Part shown: positions 41,119-49,376 of the stretch, in pieces
Position numbering within the stretch: the stretch's first letter is position 1
How the letters are laid out: each line of letters opens with the position of its first letter
Assembly: GCA_012719545.1 (NCBI GenBank)
Contig: JAAYAD010000069.1
Location: 1 to 64,000 of the forward strand
Length of the DNA stretch: 64,000 bases
Source: Clostridiaceae bacterium
GTDB lineage: Bacteria; Bacillota; Clostridia; DSM-8532
Reading direction: 5' to 3'
Made by a program: the position numbers and the translations under genes
Notes under the pieces: model-generated
Seen by the model: only the letters and a program-made list of their open reading frames with translations
Told to the model about the DNA's origin: nothing
The model's database searches: none

Positions 41119-41934
41119 TTATTTAGCCAAAATATAATATGTTCCGGGATCCAGGCGCGAAAACAAATATACCCCATGTTCATTTGTATGGGTTACCTGT
41201 ATGGGCACATTGTTTGCGTTGCACAAAACCACCAGGGCATTGTCAACCGGCTGCCCCTCTTTATTTGTGACAATTCCGTATAAGGTACCCTTCATGTTTT
41301 TTCTTTTAAGATAAATTGTCTCAAGGGCTATAACAGATTGATCCTTCCCCACTTCCACGTTTATAACTTTTTCATTGTAAGTCTGGGACTGAAAGCTTAT
41401 CCTGTAGCTTCCCGGTTCAATATTGTCGAATAAAAAGAGTCCGTCATCATTTGAGAAAGTAAAGTCATAAGGATTTAAGCTGTATGATTTAAAAATGGTT
41501 ATTTTTACTCCGCCTATGGGCTTCTGCGCTGCATCCTTTATATTGCCATAAAAAATTATTCCTCCATTTGGTGAAGCCGCAAGCTCAACGTTGAGGGCTT
41601 TCTTTTCCAGATACACAGAAGGCATGCTTTCACTGGAAAATGTCTGATACCCTCTCTTGGCAGCAATAACACGTATATTGGGGCTCAATTTGGTCTGTAA
41701 GCTGAAATTTCCGTCAACATCGGTGAAAGTATATGAAATAGGCTGAAAATCTTCATCACATACTTTAATACAAGCTCCTTCTATTGGTTTTCCGGTAGTC
41801 TTGTCGCTGACATTGCCCATTATAGTATTTTCTTCCCAGGTCATTTCACTTAATACTATTTTTGCAAGATGACCTTCATTTTCCCCGGATATAACCACCT
41901 TCTGGAATTGGGTTGGAACTACTGATCTGCTCAC
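41119..41934 (-). CDS. triple carboxypeptidase-regulatory-like repeat protein
   Basis: A 271-aa protein starting at GTG (GGAGG 6 bases upstream) with no signal peptide or transmembrane helix. After a ~35-residue N-terminal segment come three Ig-like repeats, each with the pattern GxVxDxxxxPIxGAxV ... FTDVDGxFSL / FSNDDGLFLFDNIEPGSYRI / HTNEHGVYLFSRLDPGTYYI. These are carboxypeptidase-regulatory/Cna-B-like folds. It is divergently paired with a paralogue at 42078. Cytoplasmic localisation of such domains is unusual; a spore-coat or non-classically exported role is possible. Confidence 0.75.
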   Translation of the reverse strand: MSRSVVPTQFQKVVISGENEGHLAKIVLSEMTWEENTIMGNVSDKTTGKPIEGACIKVCDEDFQPISYTFTDVDGNFSLQTKLSPNIRVIAAKRGYQTFSSESMPSVYLEKKALNVELAASPNGGIIFYGNIKDAAQKPIGGVKITIFKSYSLNPYDFTFSNDDGLFLFDNIEPGSYRISFQSQTYNEKVINVEVGKDQSVIALETIYLKRKNMKGTLYGIVTNKEGQPVDNALVVLCNANNVPIQVTHTNEHGVYLFSRLDPGTYYILAK

Positions 41935-42077
41935 ACGTATCCTCCTCTTTACCCATTACTAAAACAGTATATGAAAAACCGCAGTTTGTTGTGAAACCCG
42001 CAATATACAAGCACCAACAGGCACAGTGAATCATATATTAATACGTCTGATATTTCTGCATATTGGAGGTTCCAGCC

Positions 42078-42941
42078 ATGCGTATTTTAAAAGAAGAGTA
42101 CATTCTGGGCCAGTCTATTGCGAAAAATCTTGCGGGAATTGCTGAATCAATTCGTCTTGACTTGTCACTGGGTACCAATCCAGGCCTGAAATCAGGTACT
42201 TTCACAGGCAAAGTTAAGGATGCTTCCGGAATGCCGATTCCTGAGGCAACAGTAATTTTGTTTAATGAGGATTACTCAGTCCACCACAACACTTTAACGG
42301 GAGGCGACGGTATATTCATCTTCCCTTCCCTGGAACCAAACTTAAAATATCATGCATACGCAAAAGCTCCGGGATTTATGCTGTCAGAAGGAATTAGCTT
42401 TGAGATTCATGAAAACAAAACCATGGAAACAGAATTTGTGCTTACCTCCGATTCTGAAGAAATAAAGTCCATTATTGTTGGTACTGTCAAAAATATTGAA
42501 GGCAGTCCCATAAGCACCGCCACTGTTGAACTTTATAAAAATGCTGACAAAAAACCTTTATATCTTACCTTTGTCAATGAAGACGGACGATTCATAATAT
42601 GCGACCTTGAACCAAGCCTCTATTTCTTGAAAATCAATGCACCGGGTTACTTTAGCGAAGAGTTCCCTGTAGAAATTACTCAGCCCCAGGCAATTACCAT
42701 ATTCGAAGCTGTGCTGAAAGAAGACCTTAAAGCATCAAAAGGCATTGTAACAGGAATAATAACAGACAGTGAAAATAACCCCCTGGCAAATACTGACGTT
42801 ATTCTGTTCCGCATTGGTGAAAATGGTTCTCAGACACCAGTGGCCTACACCCGCAGCAATAATGAAGGAATCTATCTGTTTGTCAATGTTCCGCAGGGTG
42901 AATACTATGTTAACTCAAGCAGGAAAATAACAATGGAATAA
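42078..42941 (+). CDS. triple carboxypeptidase-regulatory-like repeat protein (paralogue)
   Basis: A 287-aa protein with the same plan as its divergent neighbour: a ~35-residue N-terminal helix segment (ILGQSIAKNLAGIAESIRLDL) and three Ig-like repeats ending in DGIFIFPSLEPNLKY, DGRFIICDLEPSLYFL and EGIYLFVNVPQGEYY. No signal peptide is visible. The start is ATG 42078 with GGAGG 8 bases upstream; the in-frame TTG earlier overlaps that site. It probably arose with the neighbour by duplication and inversion. Function unknown. Confidence 0.75.
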   Translation: MRILKEEYILGQSIAKNLAGIAESIRLDLSLGTNPGLKSGTFTGKVKDASGMPIPEATVILFNEDYSVHHNTLTGGDGIFIFPSLEPNLKYHAYAKAPGFMLSEGISFEIHENKTMETEFVLTSDSEEIKSIIVGTVKNIEGSPISTATVELYKNADKKPLYLTFVNEDGRFIICDLEPSLYFLKINAPGYFSEEFPVEITQPQAITIFEAVLKEDLKASKGIVTGIITDSENNPLANTDVILFRIGENGSQTPVAYTRSNNEGIYLFVNVPQGEYYVNSSRKITME

Positions 42942-43117: not shown

Positions 43118-43495
43118 TTGCGGCTTAAAATCAAGACAGGTGATATTTTTGTTGCCATAGCTATTGTAGTGTCATCTGTTTTAATGTTATTATCGTTCTA
43201 TAAAGAAAATACAGCTGAGAAAACCGCCGTTATTACCCAAAACGGCGTTGTTTTGAGAAAAATCAGATTGGACCTTGTCACAGAACCTATTGACATTGAG
43301 TACGGAGGAGATTATCCGGGAAAAATAGTGGCTGAAAAAGACAAAATACGCTTTTACCATGCCGATTGCCCTGATCAGGTATGTGTAAATACAGGTTGGA
43401 TAACACGCCCAGGACAAATTGCTGTATGCCTCCCAGCAGGTGTTATCATTAAAATTGAAGGAGGACATAGCGATTTTGACATAATAGTTAAATAA
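43118..43495 (+). CDS. eetA: NusG_II-domain membrane protein EetA
   Basis: A 125-aa protein: one N-terminal transmembrane helix (about 9-27), then an extracellular NusG-II domain (formerly DUF1312) with the conserved HADCPDQVCVNTG (about 85-97). It starts at TTG with AAGGAG 7 bases upstream. In Listeria the equivalent protein is part of the flavin-based extracellular electron transfer system and is thought to help reduce surface flavoproteins. It begins the locus followed by eetB, ndh2, dmkB, a PplA-like gene and an ApbE-type gene. Confidence 0.85.
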   Translation: MRLKIKTGDIFVAIAIVVSSVLMLLSFYKENTAEKTAVITQNGVVLRKIRLDLVTEPIDIEYGGDYPGKIVAEKDKIRFYHADCPDQVCVNTGWITRPGQIAVCLPAGVIIKIEGGHSDFDIIVK

Positions 43496-43723
43496 TCCCT
43501 ATAATGTGGTAGGACAGCCTGAACTTTGACAACAAAATATTGGGGGATTCTCAATTTTTTAAATTAAAATTTTGTCAGTTCTGTGTGTTTGATTTTGTTA
43601 ATATATTGGCAATCTTCTTGAAATAAGCTTATAAAAAAGATTTTACGCTCTATATTATTTCCTCAACAAAATTAAATATTTATATTTTCAGTTGAACTGG
43701 CAGATGATAAATTTGGTGGTTTA

Positions 43724-44224
43724 ATGAAAAAAATTGCACTCAACGGTCTTTTAGTATCGTTGGCACTTGTTCTTGCGTTCATGGAACGCTTTATACCCCT
43801 GGATTTATTAGTCCCCGTGCCCGGTGTAAAACTTGGTTTGGCTAATGTGGTTACAATGTTTGCCCTCTTCTTTTTGGATGTGCCATCTGCCATTGTAATA
43901 ACTGTATTGCGATGCGTACTGGCTTCATTCATGTTTGGGGGAATGACATCACTGTTTTACTCCCTGGCAGGAGCTTTTCTGGCTTTAATAACCATGATGG
44001 TTTTGAAGTTGGGATACGACAGGATATTTTCAATTGTCGGCATTAGCATTGGAGGGGCAGCCGCCCATAATACGGGCCAGATTATAATGGCAAGCATTAT
44101 GATGAGAAATTCTGCGGTTTTTGCTTATCTTCCTTTCCTTTTGCTGACCGGCATGGCGACAGGAATAATAACATCAATTGTTACTATGTATCTTTTTTCT
44201 TTTTATGAAAAAACTATAAAATAA
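43724..44224 (+). CDS. eetB: Gx-transporter-family membrane protein EetB
   Basis: A 166-aa polytopic protein (about five helices) of the family once called heptaprenyl diphosphate synthase component I. The signature VPGVKLGLANVVTMFALF is at about 30-47, and GGAAAHNTGQI at about 109-119. In electron transfer loci it accompanies EetA and is proposed to act in the membrane segment of the pathway. GGTGG lies 4 bases before the ATG. A 228-base gap separates it from eetA; no gene is seen in that gap. Confidence 0.87.
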   Translation: MKKIALNGLLVSLALVLAFMERFIPLDLLVPVPGVKLGLANVVTMFALFFLDVPSAIVITVLRCVLASFMFGGMTSLFYSLAGAFLALITMMVLKLGYDRIFSIVGISIGGAAAHNTGQIIMASIMMRNSAVFAYLPFLLLTGMATGIITSIVTMYLFSFYEKTIK

Positions 44225-44264
44225 AAATTTAAAATAATGCTACATATATGAAAGGAGTACCACA

Positions 44265-46181
44265 ATGGCTAAAAAAGTACTGATAATAGGTGCCGGCTAT
44301 GCAGGTATTGAGGCTGCCATAACTCTTAATAAGAAGAAAAAGAAGGACAACCTTGAAATTACACTCATTGATAAGAATGATTATCACACGCTGTTAACTG
44401 AGCTTCATGAGGTGGCAGGCAACAGAATACCTGAGGAAGGCATTCGTATTAATTTAAGAAGCATTTTTAAATACACAGATGTAAAAGTTGTTAAGGATGA
44501 AATTAAAAACTTTGACTTTGAGAACAAGAAGGTTTCATCAGATAATGCAGTTTATGATTATGACTATCTAATCCTTGCAATGGGAAGCTCCCCTAACTAC
44601 TTTGGAATTCCCGGACTTAAGGAGAACACCCTTCCTCTGTGGAGCTACGAGGATGCCATCAGAATTCGCGAGCATATTAAAAACTGCTTCTTACTTGCAA
44701 GCCAGGAGAAGGACATAAATAAGAAGAAGCGCCTTCTCACCTTTGTTGTTGCCGGTGCAGGCTTTACCGGTGTTGAGATGATTGGCGAGCTGGCAATCTG
44801 GGTTAAGTCTCTCTGTAAAGAATATGACATTGACCGCAAAGATGTGCGCCTTGTAATTGTAGATATGCTTCCTCGTATCTTAAATAACTTAAAAGAGGAA
44901 AACTCCATTAAGGCTCACAGATACCTTGAAAAGAAGCTTAAAGTTGAGGTAATGCTCAATACCCGCATAACAGGGGCTAATGAAAAGGGCCTGACATATG
45001 AAGGCGGAGAAATTGAAGCCGGAACTGTTATTTGGTCAGCAGGAATCAAGGCTGCCGACAGTGCAGACGAGCTTGAGCTTGAAAGAGTTAACCGCTCTAA
45101 GAGAATTAAGGTTGACGAATTCTGCAGAACCCAGTATGAAAACGTTTACTGCGTAGGCGATCTGGGCGGATTATCCGGTGAGAACGGCATGCCCTTTGCC
45201 GCAATGGTTGAGAATGCTATTCAGACTGCCCATGGTGCCGCTGAAAATATTCTTAATGACATCCGCGGCAAGGAGCAGAAGAAAGTTACAGTTAAATTCC
45301 ACGGAACCATGGTCAGCGTGGGCAACTACTTCTGTGTATCTGAGATAATGGGCAAGAGTCTTCCTGTATGGCTCTCAATTATAATGAAATTCCTTGTTAA
45401 CATCCATTATCTCTGGGAGATCACAGGATTCAGGGGTATTTCAAGATATCTGTACCATGAAGTTCTGGAGCGCAGACAAAGAAAGATATTTGTTGAAAAG
45501 CACTGGTCCACACGTATGCAAGCATGGTGGCTCACTCTCCTGCGTGTGTTCCTCGGCGGCATGTGGCTCTATGAAGGAATAGTCAAAGTTACAGAAGGCT
45601 GGTTTACATCACCCAAGCTTGCATCTTTCTTAGGAATGGCATCAGATGCAACCAGTGCGGCTACAGGATCAGCAACATATATTACACGTATAGATGAGAT
45701 TGTTAACATTAAAACAGGCATAATCAATTTCCTGCTTGGAACCGAATCCCGTCTGGTTGAGGGAGCCGTAATCAGTTCACAGCAATTTGCCAAGGTTGAC
45801 CTTTTCCGTTTTGGTGACTTCAGCCTTATGAACTGGTTCCTGCAGAACGTAGTTTTGGCTAACGACGGAGTTGCAATGTTCTTCCAGGTACTTGTAGTTA
45901 TCTTCGAAATCCTCGTTGGTCTGATGCTGTTGGGCGGTGCCTTCACCTTCATCGGTTCACTCATATCAGTTGGACTTTTGACCATGTTTATTACTTCAAC
46001 AGGTCTTTATAAAGACAGTTGGTGGATGATTTTCGCTTCCATAGCAACTATGGGCGGAGCAGGCAGAGCCTTCGGTTTGGACTACTACCTCATCCCCTGG
46101 CTGAACAATGTTTGGGAAAGCTTCTGGAAAAACAGAAAGTTCCGTCTCTTCTTCAAACATGGTCTTGACCGGTTTGACTGA
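44265..46181 (+). CDS. ndh2: type II NADH dehydrogenase with C-terminal membrane extension (Ndh2)
   Basis: A 638-aa protein. Residues 1-400 are an NDH-2 flavoenzyme: VLIIGAGYAGIEAA (about 4-17, FAD), VAGAGFTGVEMIGEL (NADH) and YCVGDLGGL (FAD). Residues from about 410 add a DoxX-like membrane part with several helices (LRVFLGGMWLYEGIVK; GALTF-type and GLDYYLIPW segments). The extension is a feature described for Ndh2 of flavin-based extracellular electron transfer, where it passes NADH electrons to a special quinone pool. GGAG precedes the ATG. Confidence 0.92.
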   Translation: MAKKVLIIGAGYAGIEAAITLNKKKKKDNLEITLIDKNDYHTLLTELHEVAGNRIPEEGIRINLRSIFKYTDVKVVKDEIKNFDFENKKVSSDNAVYDYDYLILAMGSSPNYFGIPGLKENTLPLWSYEDAIRIREHIKNCFLLASQEKDINKKKRLLTFVVAGAGFTGVEMIGELAIWVKSLCKEYDIDRKDVRLVIVDMLPRILNNLKEENSIKAHRYLEKKLKVEVMLNTRITGANEKGLTYEGGEIEAGTVIWSAGIKAADSADELELERVNRSKRIKVDEFCRTQYENVYCVGDLGGLSGENGMPFAAMVENAIQTAHGAAENILNDIRGKEQKKVTVKFHGTMVSVGNYFCVSEIMGKSLPVWLSIIMKFLVNIHYLWEITGFRGISRYLYHEVLERRQRKIFVEKHWSTRMQAWWLTLLRVFLGGMWLYEGIVKVTEGWFTSPKLASFLGMASDATSAATGSATYITRIDEIVNIKTGIINFLLGTESRLVEGAVISSQQFAKVDLFRFGDFSLMNWFLQNVVLANDGVAMFFQVLVVIFEILVGLMLLGGAFTFIGSLISVGLLTMFITSTGLYKDSWWMIFASIATMGGAGRAFGLDYYLIPWLNNVWESFWKNRKFRLFFKHGLDRFD

Positions 46182-46244
46182 TGTTCCATGAAAGCCCTCA
46201 TGTGATTTTTGCCTGAGCCATGCACTATTAGGAGGTTGGAAAAT

Positions 46245-47186
46245 TTGTGGGACAGATTCCCGGTCATAAAAGCGGAACTTGCAGCCTTTGAGGATTATCT
46301 GAAGTCAAGGCTTTCGTCCCGAATTGAATTTCTGGATATTGCGTCAAAAGGTGTGGTTTTATCGGGCGGAAAAAGGCTCCGCCCGGCCTTTACCATAATA
46401 GCTGCGCTGCACGGAGATTACAATCGCGAGCGTGTATTCCCTGCGGCGGCGGCAGTAGAAATACTGCATGCGGCAACCCTTATTCATGACGATATTATTG
46501 ACAATGCTAAAACTCGCAGAGGTCAAATGACGCTTTCAGAAAAACACAACATCAACCTTGCAGTTTATACGGGCGACTATTTGTTTGCCAAATCGCTGCG
46601 ACTTTTGGTTGATACAGGACTTAAGCCCGAAAAACTCAACGTGCTTGCAAGGACTATATCAATAATCTGCGAGTGTGAGATTGACCAATATATTGGCAAA
46701 TATGATATTGGCACAGTAAAAAACTATTTGAAGCGAATTATCGGAAAGACCGGCATGCTGTTTTCAGCATCTCTTATTCTGGGTGCAAAAACCGCCAACC
46801 TTTCCGATGATGTGGCAAGACTTTTCGGAAGATTTGGAAACAGCTTCGGTGCTGCTTTCCAGATTAGGGATGACCTGTTGGACATCCTCTCCGACCAGAA
46901 AACTGAAGGAAAACCCGTATTAAATGACCTCAAAGAAGGAATTGCCACACTCCCCATTATTATTTCAGCTTCCAAGAACCCGGAGCTGAGGGAAATGGTT
47001 AACGACTTCTTTGACGGCAACGGCGGCGATATAAATCAGTTAATACAAGCCGTTATTTCCTCTGGAGGAATTAAGGATTCCGAAAAGCTTAAGAACAGAT
47101 ATGTTCAGAAATGTAAAAGCTACATTGAACAAATGCCTAAAACACCTTACACCGATGCTCTGAATGAAATTGTGGACTGGCTGTAA
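46245..47186 (+). CDS. dmkB: polyprenyl diphosphate synthase (DmkB-like)
   Basis: A 313-aa trans-isoprenyl diphosphate synthase. The first aspartate-rich motif is HDDIIDNAKTRRG, the second IRDDLLDIL; both bind Mg-diphosphate. The start is TTG 46245: AGGAGG lies 9 bases before it, while an ATG further upstream is out of frame and stops at once. In extracellular electron transfer loci this enzyme (DmkB) makes the side chain of a dedicated demethylmenaquinone. The prenyltransferase partner DmkA is not in the window. Confidence 0.9.
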   Translation: MWDRFPVIKAELAAFEDYLKSRLSSRIEFLDIASKGVVLSGGKRLRPAFTIIAALHGDYNRERVFPAAAAVEILHAATLIHDDIIDNAKTRRGQMTLSEKHNINLAVYTGDYLFAKSLRLLVDTGLKPEKLNVLARTISIICECEIDQYIGKYDIGTVKNYLKRIIGKTGMLFSASLILGAKTANLSDDVARLFGRFGNSFGAAFQIRDDLLDILSDQKTEGKPVLNDLKEGIATLPIIISASKNPELREMVNDFFDGNGGDINQLIQAVISSGGIKDSEKLKNRYVQKCKSYIEQMPKTPYTDALNEIVDWL

Positions 47187-47247
47187 AGCCCGTTCACAAG
47201 GACATTCTTTGCATAAATATTTAAAAACCTTTAAGGAGGATATTTCT

Positions 47248-47766
47248 ATGAAAAAAGTCTTAGCACTCACATTGGTTGCAATTTTACTCGCTGGATGCGG
47301 TGCAGCAACCACAGTAAAAACCGGGCTCGGCCACACTGTTTCTATCGCCAGCTCAAAGGATGCAACTGCCGAAGCTGAAGGCGCTGCTCAGGTTGACACT
47401 GTTATGGCCGCTGTTTCTGTTGACAAGGCCGGAAAAATCGTTAGCGTTACCATTGATACCGCTCAGGTAAAGGTTAACTTTGACGCTACCGGTAAAATCA
47501 CTTCCAACAAGGATGAAAAGCCTGAGACCAAGGTTGAGAAAGGCGATGCCTATGGTATGAAGAAGAATTCCGGTATCGGCAAAGAGTGGTATGAGCAGAT
47601 TGCTGACCTTGAAAAGTGGATGGTTGGCAAGACCGTTGACCAGGTTAAAGCTATGAAGCTCAATGATGAAGGCAGACCTGCTGAAGCTGACCTTACTTCA
47701 AAGGTTACAATTCACGTAAATGACTACATCGAAGCAGTTTCAGAAGCAGTTGCAAATGCAAGATAA
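47248..47766 (+). CDS. pplA: PplA-like FMN-binding surface lipoprotein
   Basis: A 172-aa lipoprotein: signal peptide ending in a lipobox (LLAGC, Cys at about 16), then a small domain of alternating strands rich in Ala/Lys/Thr. It resembles PplA, the surface flavoprotein that passes electrons to external acceptors. The C-terminal DLTSKVT aligns with the FMN-transferase acceptor motif DxxSGAT at Asp, Ser and Thr, so the last Thr may carry FMN. AAGGAGG precedes the ATG. The ApbE-type gene follows. Naming is by domain and context. Confidence 0.75.
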   Translation: MKKVLALTLVAILLAGCGAATTVKTGLGHTVSIASSKDATAEAEGAAQVDTVMAAVSVDKAGKIVSVTIDTAQVKVNFDATGKITSNKDEKPETKVEKGDAYGMKKNSGIGKEWYEQIADLEKWMVGKTVDQVKAMKLNDEGRPAEADLTSKVTIHVNDYIEAVSEAVANAR

Positions 47767-47801
47767 TTGCCATTAATTTGGTACATAGTGTTAACCAATG
47801 A

Positions 47802-47829
47802 AGAACCCCTTCTTGACGGGAGGGGTTCT
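47802..47829 (+). terminator. hairpin between pplA-like and apbE-like genes
   Basis: AGAACCCCT pairs with AGGGGTTCT across an 11-nt loop, followed by the weak U tract CTTTACTATTATT. It may terminate partially, giving more lipoprotein than transferase. Confidence 0.6.
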
Positions 47830-47876
47830 CTTTACTATTATTAAGTTTGCTAACTTTCTGTTTAAAAGAGGATGGT

Positions 47877-48968
47877 ATGAAAAAATACAGCATAATTTGC
47901 CTTTTTATATGTGCCGCTGTCTTGCTGACCGGCTGCAATATTTTTGGAAAGGCTAATAACTCCGGATACGACAAATACAGCTATGAATTTCTGGGCACAT
48001 TTGATACTGTTGTGCAGATAATGGGTTATGCCAAAACTCAAAAGGAATTTGAGGATATGGCATCCATTGCAAAAAAACGTTTTGAAGAACTCAATAAGCT
48101 TTATGATGTATATAATAACTACGATGGAATAAATAATATCAAAACAATCAATGATAACGCCGGAATAAAACCTGTGGAAGTCTCCCAGGAGATTATAGAT
48201 CTGATTCTCTTCTCTAAGGAATGGTATTATAAAACCAATAGGAAATGCAATATAGCCTTGGGGTCAATGTTATATATATGGCATGAATACAGAGATGCCG
48301 GCATTAGTGACCCTGAAAATGCAAAACTTCCCCCCATGGACGATCTAAAAAAAGCCATGGAGCATACAGATATTGAAAAAGTAATTGTAAATGAGCAGAA
48401 TAAAACTGTTTTTCTGGCTGATAAAGATATGAGGCTCGATGTTGGCGCGGTAGCCAAAGGATTTGCCAGTGAAATCGTAGTACAAGAGCTTATGGAAAAA
48501 GGATATACCGGGTTTATTATAAGCTCCGGAGGCAATGTCAGAACCGTGGGCAAGCCTTTGGACGGAGTAAGGATTAAATGGGGAATTGGAATTCAGAATC
48601 CTGACGGCAACGCTCTTGATCCTAATGACCCTCCCCTGGACATAGTATTCCTCACTGACAAATCTGTGGTAACCAGCGGCGACTACCAGCGCTATTACAT
48701 TGTTGACGGCAAAAAATATCATCATTTAATTGACCCTGAAACCTTGATGCCCGCTGATTATTTCCGCTCGGTTGTTGCTATTGTAGAGGATTCCGGCCTT
48801 GCCGACTTTATGTCCACAACACTTTATTTAACTCCTTTTGATGAAGGCTACGAGCTTGCTCAATCCCTTGGAATTGAAGCAGTATGGATTATGAATGATG
48901 GAACCATTAAGGCTACTCCGGGGGCTGAAAAAATAATGAAGAGCAAAGGTGCCACTGCAACCGAGTAA
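47877..48968 (+). CDS. fmnB: FAD:protein FMN transferase (ApbE family)
   Basis: A 363-aa lipoprotein (lipobox LLTGC, Cys at about 19) of the ApbE family. It has the early FDTVVQIMGY, the core MRLDVGAVAKGFASE (about 182-196), and SSGGNVRTVG, as well as the metal-binding segment SVVTSGDYQRYY. Such enzymes cleave FAD and attach FMN to Ser/Thr of exported proteins. Its place behind the PplA-like gene makes that lipoprotein the likely substrate. The start is ATG 47877 with GAGG upstream. Confidence 0.92.
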   Translation: MKKYSIICLFICAAVLLTGCNIFGKANNSGYDKYSYEFLGTFDTVVQIMGYAKTQKEFEDMASIAKKRFEELNKLYDVYNNYDGINNIKTINDNAGIKPVEVSQEIIDLILFSKEWYYKTNRKCNIALGSMLYIWHEYRDAGISDPENAKLPPMDDLKKAMEHTDIEKVIVNEQNKTVFLADKDMRLDVGAVAKGFASEIVVQELMEKGYTGFIISSGGNVRTVGKPLDGVRIKWGIGIQNPDGNALDPNDPPLDIVFLTDKSVVTSGDYQRYYIVDGKKYHHLIDPETLMPADYFRSVVAIVEDSGLADFMSTTLYLTPFDEGYELAQSLGIEAVWIMNDGTIKATPGAEKIMKSKGATATE

Positions 48969-49034: not shown

Positions 49035-49376
49035 ATGAAAATAAAGGAGTTTAAGTTTGACCGAGGCTGGAAGCTATTATTTTATTTTGATATACTTCTT
49101 CCTGTTATCATTTATGTTATAGCCTTTATATCGGGTACTTCCTGGTTTGCATCACTTTTTCATTCATATGAAATGTTTATTGTAAGCCCCATTCCCAATA
49201 TACAAGCACTATCTGGCATAGTTGGCCTTATTTATCATGTGGGAATATTAGCTTATACTTTAATCAGAAAGAACTATAAGGATTTTGCTGTCTGCTTAAT
49301 TATATCCCTTATTATCGCTGCCTTCTTCCTGACTGAATTGAACTACACTATACTCAGGCCTCTGAATTTTGCATAA
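49035..49376 (+). CDS. three-helix membrane protein, function unknown
   Basis: A 113-aa protein with three hydrophobic helices (about 17-35, 58-78 and 84-103). GAGGTG precedes the ATG. It lies 66 bases behind the ApbE-type gene and could be the last gene of the electron transfer locus. I do not recognise a family. Confidence 0.6.
   Translation: MKIKEFKFDRGWKLLFYFDILLPVIIYVIAFISGTSWFASLFHSYEMFIVSPIPNIQALSGIVGLIYHVGILAYTLIRKNYKDFAVCLIISLIIAAFFLTELNYTILRPLNFA

Follow-up and report, generated by a model that had tools for sequence, protein, structure and literature searches.

The six-gene locus at positions 43118-48968 of the window, the whole 64,000-nucleotide stretch of Clostridiaceae bacterium DNA that was analysed, raises the question whether this organism possesses a flavin-based electron-export system of the Listeria kind, and what role is played by the lipoprotein encoded there in the position of PplA. 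The source bacterium is a relative of gut and biogas clostridia with a genome of 2.95 Mb in 102 contigs (completeness 99.99%), and those of its relatives that bear a name in the public genome collection are assemblies from metagenomes, filed under Clostridiaceae, Ruminiclostridium and Thermoclostridium. The locus comprises the following genes:

43118..43495, + strand: eetA, NusG domain II membrane protein (TTG start; PF07009 (NusG_II), 1.1e-28)
43724..44224, + strand: eetB, ECF-S-like FAD export subunit (PF07456 (Hpre_diP_synt_I), 1.3e-40; function from PMC9973259)
44265..46181, + strand: ndh2, type II NADH dehydrogenase of 638 aa with a C-terminal DoxX/MauE-like membrane extension
46245..47186, + strand: dmkB, polyprenyl diphosphate synthase (TTG start at 46245; PF00348 (polyprenyl_synt), 1.6e-55)
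47248..47766, + strand: lip, lipoprotein of 172 aa occupying the position of PplA (one FMN_bind-like domain, carrying the variant motif D-L-T-S-K-V-T)
47877..48968, + strand: apbE, FmnB-like FAD:protein FMN transferase (PF02424, 1.6e-62)

All six open reading frames are encoded on the + strand, at the place and in the direction that the sequence-only reading had given, with earlier coordinates corrected for lip (start at 47248), dmkB (TTG at 46245) and apbE (47877). Pfam types together with the conserved gene order confirm the identities that had been assigned to eetA, eetB, ndh2, dmkB and the ApbE-type gene, each of which matches its gene name; lip alone has no family match. The family search was positive for these five and negative for the lipoprotein, which lacks an FMN_bind match: the earlier claim that the set matches Listeria stands for the gene types, while the lipoprotein fails the sequence definition of PplA/FMN_bind. 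Ndh2 shows a Pyr_redox_2 domain (5.4e-43) and a MauE match above the Pfam cut-off in its tail, and the nearest solved structures for residues 4-390 are type II NADH dehydrogenases; the Listeria Ndh2 has a C-terminal membrane extension. The best NCBIfam match of DmkB, heptaprenyl diphosphate synthase component II, is below the cut-off.

The order eetA-eetB-ndh2-dmkB-lip-apbE, in one direction, is found in the genus wherever the contig is long enough, far beyond chance, with eetA adjoining eetB across the genus and, after apbE, a gene for a small membrane protein and then a metallo-hydrolase-like gene. The lip gene was found in 11 of the 14 genus members searched, the source genome included, and no match was obtained in G003, G012 and G005, the last of which is 86% complete. 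Loss of the operon from G003 and G012 was considered and rejected, as their contigs stop inside the operon. The small membrane protein that adjoins apbE in the genus is encoded in the window at 49035-49376 (+); it has 113 aa and no Pfam match. Upstream, a divergent pair of genes (41119-41934, - strand; 42063-42941, + strand) encodes carboxypeptidase-regulatory/SpaA-like repeat proteins, and this pair keeps its synteny with the operon across the genus and, in part, in genus g7.

Two candidate transcription signals are located within the locus:

43476..43505, + strand: best promoter-like match, TTGACA-18-TATAAT, between eetA and eetB (from a consensus scan alone; the sole 12/12 match)
47802..47829, + strand: intrinsic terminator with a 12-pair stem, between lip and apbE

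Most of the genus members checked have an equivalent of this hairpin at the corresponding site. The genes had been described as lying behind one promoter-like site, and this is contradicted, because a conserved terminator splits lip from apbE; moreover, the sole full match lies between eetA and eetB rather than ahead of the set. From this arrangement, many lip transcripts and few apbE transcripts would likely be made.

The gene product that departs most from the Listeria description is the lipoprotein, referred to here as Lip. The sequence-only reading had called it PplA-like; by sequence it is not PplA, since it has one domain, no FMN_bind hit and no SGAT/TGAT motif. Lip of the window matched no Pfam or NCBIfam family above the cut-off, including FMN_bind (PF04205), and the FMN_bind model matched 7 of 70 members of the Lip family weakly (best E 0.0087), below the Pfam gathering score. 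A profile of the family matched one PDB sequence, 2kzx (E 7e-4); the part of 2kzx covered by the alignment scores as an FMN_bind domain (30.3 bits; cut-off 22). Profile-profile comparison of Lip with canonical FMN_bind lipoproteins (hhalign) gave 91.6% and an E of 8e-7. Judged by sequence, Lip is a remote FMN_bind relative. The AlphaFold model of Lip is confident (mean pLDDT 83). A Foldseek search against the PDB returned no significant match (best E 0.018), and VIA-align placed 3o6u first (Z 8.0) and 8p2a, a flavinylated-type domain (SaFMN3 domain 2), second (Z 7.3), RnfG scoring 5.2. We take 3o6u to be an FMN_bind-type domain. As the top Z scores are near the background of 7-8 stated by the tool and IscU-like rows reach 5.5-7, the fold evidence alone is not decisive.

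A short motif around one threonine distinguishes Lip from the known flavin carriers:

47707..47709, + strand: codon of Thr154, to which FMN is proposed to be attached (no variation across 70 diverse domains; aligned with the FMN_bind acceptor Thr)

Canonical ApbE targets carry D-x-x-[S/T]-G-A-[S/T] (PMC12052999), and PplA orthologues carry SGAT motifs (PMC7074142). The window Lip reads D-L-T-S-K-V-T and the family [D/E]-L-x-S-x-V-T; [S/T]GA[S/T] was absent from all 137 Lip domains examined in public loci. Across these domains the columns are acidic (137/137), L (134/137), S, A or T (137/137), V (136/137) and, at the acceptor position, T in 135 and S in two. An alignment of the 70 diverse domains has nine invariant columns, Thr154 among them, and the profile-profile alignment sets this residue on the flavinylated Thr of FMN_bind proteins. 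In a model substrate, changing G to A or A to V left about 50% flavinylation in each case (PMC12052999). Thr154 is thus the putative acceptor of FMN transferred by ApbE.

The transferase encoded beside lip differs at a corresponding point:

48741..48752, + strand: T289-L290-M291-P292 of ApbE, in place of the canonical T-G-Y-P

This ApbE is the only one in the source genome (one match); its nearest solved structures include Listeria FmnB (7esa, 6e-32), with which its catalytic Ser, His and Asp align. ApbEs encoded beside Lip read HHLIDPxT-L/F-M-P, and canonical ones HHILDPxT-G-Y-P. In a tree of 109 ApbEs, the TL/TF type (82) and the TG type (27) separate without exception (support 1.0). A Lip gene lies within 1.5 kb of 72 of the 82 TL/TF sequences, and at least two further ones have Lip elsewhere (about 3 kb away in L145, on another contig in G022), compared with one of 27 TG sequences (L135, where a second ApbE is also encoded directly downstream of Lip). 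A Fisher value for this association overstates the support because the TG/TL split is a single evolutionary origin. TL-type ApbEs without Lip (genus g7, G032, G039, G055) nest within the TL clade, a placement that points to subsequent Lip loss. In the paper on FmnB, no discussion of the T-G residues was found. Lip and ApbE would thus form a matched variant pair, in which the two sequence changes are presumably linked, and this pair is the new part of the locus. A TL-type ApbE of G032, a genome without Lip, is encoded beside a membrane protein of 440 aa containing a CPFGGVES stretch of NapH-like appearance (L274; G032:C35, 1671-4110).

A public scan yielded 489 confirmed loci of this clostridial lipoprotein family. 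Two-domain forms accounted for 60 of the 81 Lip proteins from 80 fetched loci, most of which adjoin ApbE and have no ndh2 or eetAB nearby, so electron export is not the sole context of Lip. Most two-domain Lip-ApbE pairs, among them L149, L159, L161, L170 and L178, have neither ndh2/eetAB nor a widely shared neighbour nearby, and the hosts of such pairs include Geosporobacter ferrireducens, Alkaliphilus and Fermentithermobacillus. The sole hit in the plasmid collection (L323, NZ_CP154629.1) is an unannotated Lip relative of Acetoanaerobium noterae; this 2.6 Mb replicon is probably a chromosome despite its plasmid label. The slot of PplA is taken by Lip, since next to ndh2 the sister genus g2 (G020) encodes dmkB and a canonical FMN_bind lipoprotein with a single domain (SITGAT), and since G056 and G102 group UbiA, dmkB, ndh2, lip and apbE together. 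Genus g7 retains an eetA-eetB-ndh2-dmkB-apbE operon with a TL-type ApbE and no Lip (L123, L239, L240, L241, L290), so the other operon genes can do without Lip. A small FMN_bind protein of the g7 genome G031 was considered as a hidden Lip and rejected, as it carries the canonical motif.

The remaining partners were sought in the source genome. DmkA had been reported absent from the window, which is borne out, and the rest of the genome contains one UbiA-family gene (C23:2578-3561), whose product shares 36% identity across 312 aa with the UbiA encoded in the electron-transfer locus of G056; DmkA is considered present on the strength of this match. The flavin transporter had likewise been placed outside the window. 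This is correct for the ECF ATPases and the only EcfT of the genome, which lie side by side on contig C14, and no ORF for an ECF-T subunit (FmnA) was found around the locus; however, part of the supposedly missing transporter is in the window, because EetB is itself the FAD-exporting substrate subunit (PMC9973259). The quinone-pathway search covered MenB alone: no sequence reached E 0.001 in the source genome, and the same search was positive in 11 of 14 control genomes. Therefore DHNA, the quinone head group, is probably scavenged. Electron transfer of this kind can be sustained by quinones supplied from outside, as L. plantarum shows (PMC10746273).

The source genome encodes exactly one ApbE, one EetB homolog, one RnfD and one FMN_bind protein, RnfG, which carries the motif SGAT and is encoded beside RnfD on contig C67, the locus being on another contig. 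As sole copies in a genome that encodes Rnf, the ApbE and EetB of the locus probably serve Rnf (RnfG/RnfD) too. In G056 (complete) and G102, Lip is encoded beside ApbE and no FMN_bind and no RnfD/NqrB protein was found, leaving Lip as the obvious remaining ApbE substrate among the classes searched, FMN_bind and RnfD/NqrB; G043, which is 83% complete, shows the same pattern. That the majority of Lip genomes would have no further ApbE substrate was considered and rejected, with FMN_bind proteins in 47 and RnfD in 49 of 50; natural tests are provided by G056 and G102 alone, together with the less complete G043. The Gly of the RnfG motif is lost in 8 of 21 genomes with the TL type as sole ApbE (TAAT, SAAT, TSAT, ASAT) and kept in 22 of 22 with a TG-type ApbE; the nominal p of 0.0014 is too optimistic because the eight genomes represent about four lineages by eye. 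This suggests that TL-type ApbE tolerates a non-glycine residue in the RnfG motif.

RnfG sequences without the motif Gly were listed at L225 (G003), L292 (G028), L107 (G031), L094 (G007) and L299 (G055), in genomes whose sole ApbE is of the TL type or in which no ApbE was found. An RnfG tandem duplicate of 352 aa with the motifs SGAT and SSAT is encoded at L224 (G013, 1399-2457). Rnf and RnfG without a detected ApbE were observed in G041 (L106; 99% complete, RnfG motif SSAT), G026 and G059.

These data bear on three alternatives to electron export through a variant carrier. The locus might be a standard Listeria PplA locus whose Lip is an ordinary FMN_bind protein missed by the models, as the gene set, its order and the remote FMN_bind relationship would allow; we consider this very improbable, since PplA orthologues carry SGAT (PMC7074142), which no examined Lip domain does, and the paired ApbE belongs to a distinct clade. 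It is less far-fetched, but still unlikely, that Lip is not flavinylated at all and is instead a degenerate FMN_bind relative that binds flavin non-covalently or holds another ligand, or that only interacts with ApbE. The family-wide replacement of the motif G and A and the sub-threshold PF04205 scores are in line with such decay, which would not, however, leave T or S at the acceptor position of all 137 domains and T in all of the 70 diverse ones; the position of Lip, nearly always beside ApbE, also speaks against this alternative, as do G056 and G102, where no FMN_bind or RnfD-type substrate was found.

A broader alternative concerns the operon as a whole: apbE and eetB could be mainly a flavinylation service for Rnf, with ndh2, dmkB and lip as linked passengers or as a means of redox balancing without true export. 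The presence of one ApbE and one EetB alone in a genome that encodes Rnf, the co-location of eetB with Rnf genes that is reported to be pronounced in Clostridia (PMC9973259) and the g7 operon without lip all speak for it. Yet lip and ndh2 remain linked to apbE within the genus, whereas Rnf is encoded on a separate contig, the lip-apbE-ndh2-dmkB-UbiA set occurs in G056 and G102 without RnfD, and a dual service is compatible with electron export, so that we regard this alternative as possible but rather unlikely.

The explanation that we favour, with a probability of roughly 0.6, is a flavin-based locus for electron export, similar to that of Listeria, in which the terminal carrier and its transferase form a variant pair, the gene content making electron export plausible. 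Ndh2 would oxidise NADH and reduce a prenylated naphthoquinone (a presumed identity for the quinone), which would be made by DmkB from the locus and DmkA from elsewhere, probably on scavenged DHNA, a step proposed because menB is missing. EetB would export FAD together with the cell's only EcfT/EcfA module, and ApbE would move FMN from FAD onto Thr154 of Lip, within [D/E]-L-x-S-x-V-T. The resulting FMN-lipoprotein could then hand electrons to outside acceptors, ApbE and EetB probably serving RnfG/RnfD as well.

Beyond this locus, we lean towards the existence of a second flavinylation code in Clostridia, in which the T-L/F-M-P clade of ApbE reads [D/E]-L-x-S-x-V-T in the widespread Lip family, for which Pfam and NCBIfam have no model, making Lip an unrecognized flavin electron carrier of hundreds of species and, in some of them, the outlet of an Ndh2 electron-export locus. 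Surveys of flavin electron transfer use the FMN_bind model and the [S/T]GA[S/T] motif, and because of this reliance they would miss Lip in hundreds of clostridial genomes. In a flavinylation dataset, 17% of genomes have ApbE and no FMN_bind protein (PMC8238504), a gap that the Lip family may explain in part. If the motif is real, it offers a naturally evolved enzyme-substrate pair with which to study target recognition by ApbE, and perhaps another flavin tag; for the source organism, the question of electron export becomes a defined and cheap test.

Compared with the reference set of Listeria monocytogenes, Enterococcus and Lactiplantibacillus (FLEET: ndh2, eetA, eetB, dmkA, dmkB, fmnA, fmnB, pplA), the locus shares EetA, EetB, an extended Ndh2, DmkB, an ApbE/FmnB and a surface lipoprotein near Ndh2, and the genome encodes DmkA and ECF subunits as well. 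In contrast to FLEET, DmkA and ECF-T are encoded outside the locus, no menB was found in the genome by the above search, and the sole ApbE and EetB of the genome lie in the locus while Rnf is also present. The ApbE resembles ApbE/FmnB in its Pfam family and aligned catalytic Ser, His and Asp, but belongs to another clade, with T-L-M-P for T-G-Y-P (FmnB 279-282, in a numbering offset from the published S257/H273). Lip resembles FMN_bind proteins (PF04205: RnfG, NqrC, PplA/Cad) in its remote sequence relationship, aligned acceptor Thr and possibly its predicted fold, and its family resembles the FMN-bind2 subtype (PMC10979944) in that two-domain forms are common; it differs in carrying [D/E]LxSxVT for [S/T]GA[S/T] and in scoring under the Pfam gathering threshold. 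Papers on iron-reducing Clostridium report either a NosR-ApbE module or nothing flavin-based, and not the present set. By its published description, PplA has two SGAT flavinylation motifs (PMC7074142), whereas Lip of the window has one domain with DLTSKVT and thus falls outside that definition; for this reason, it is preferable to describe the locus as a variant of the Listeria system rather than as one of its members.
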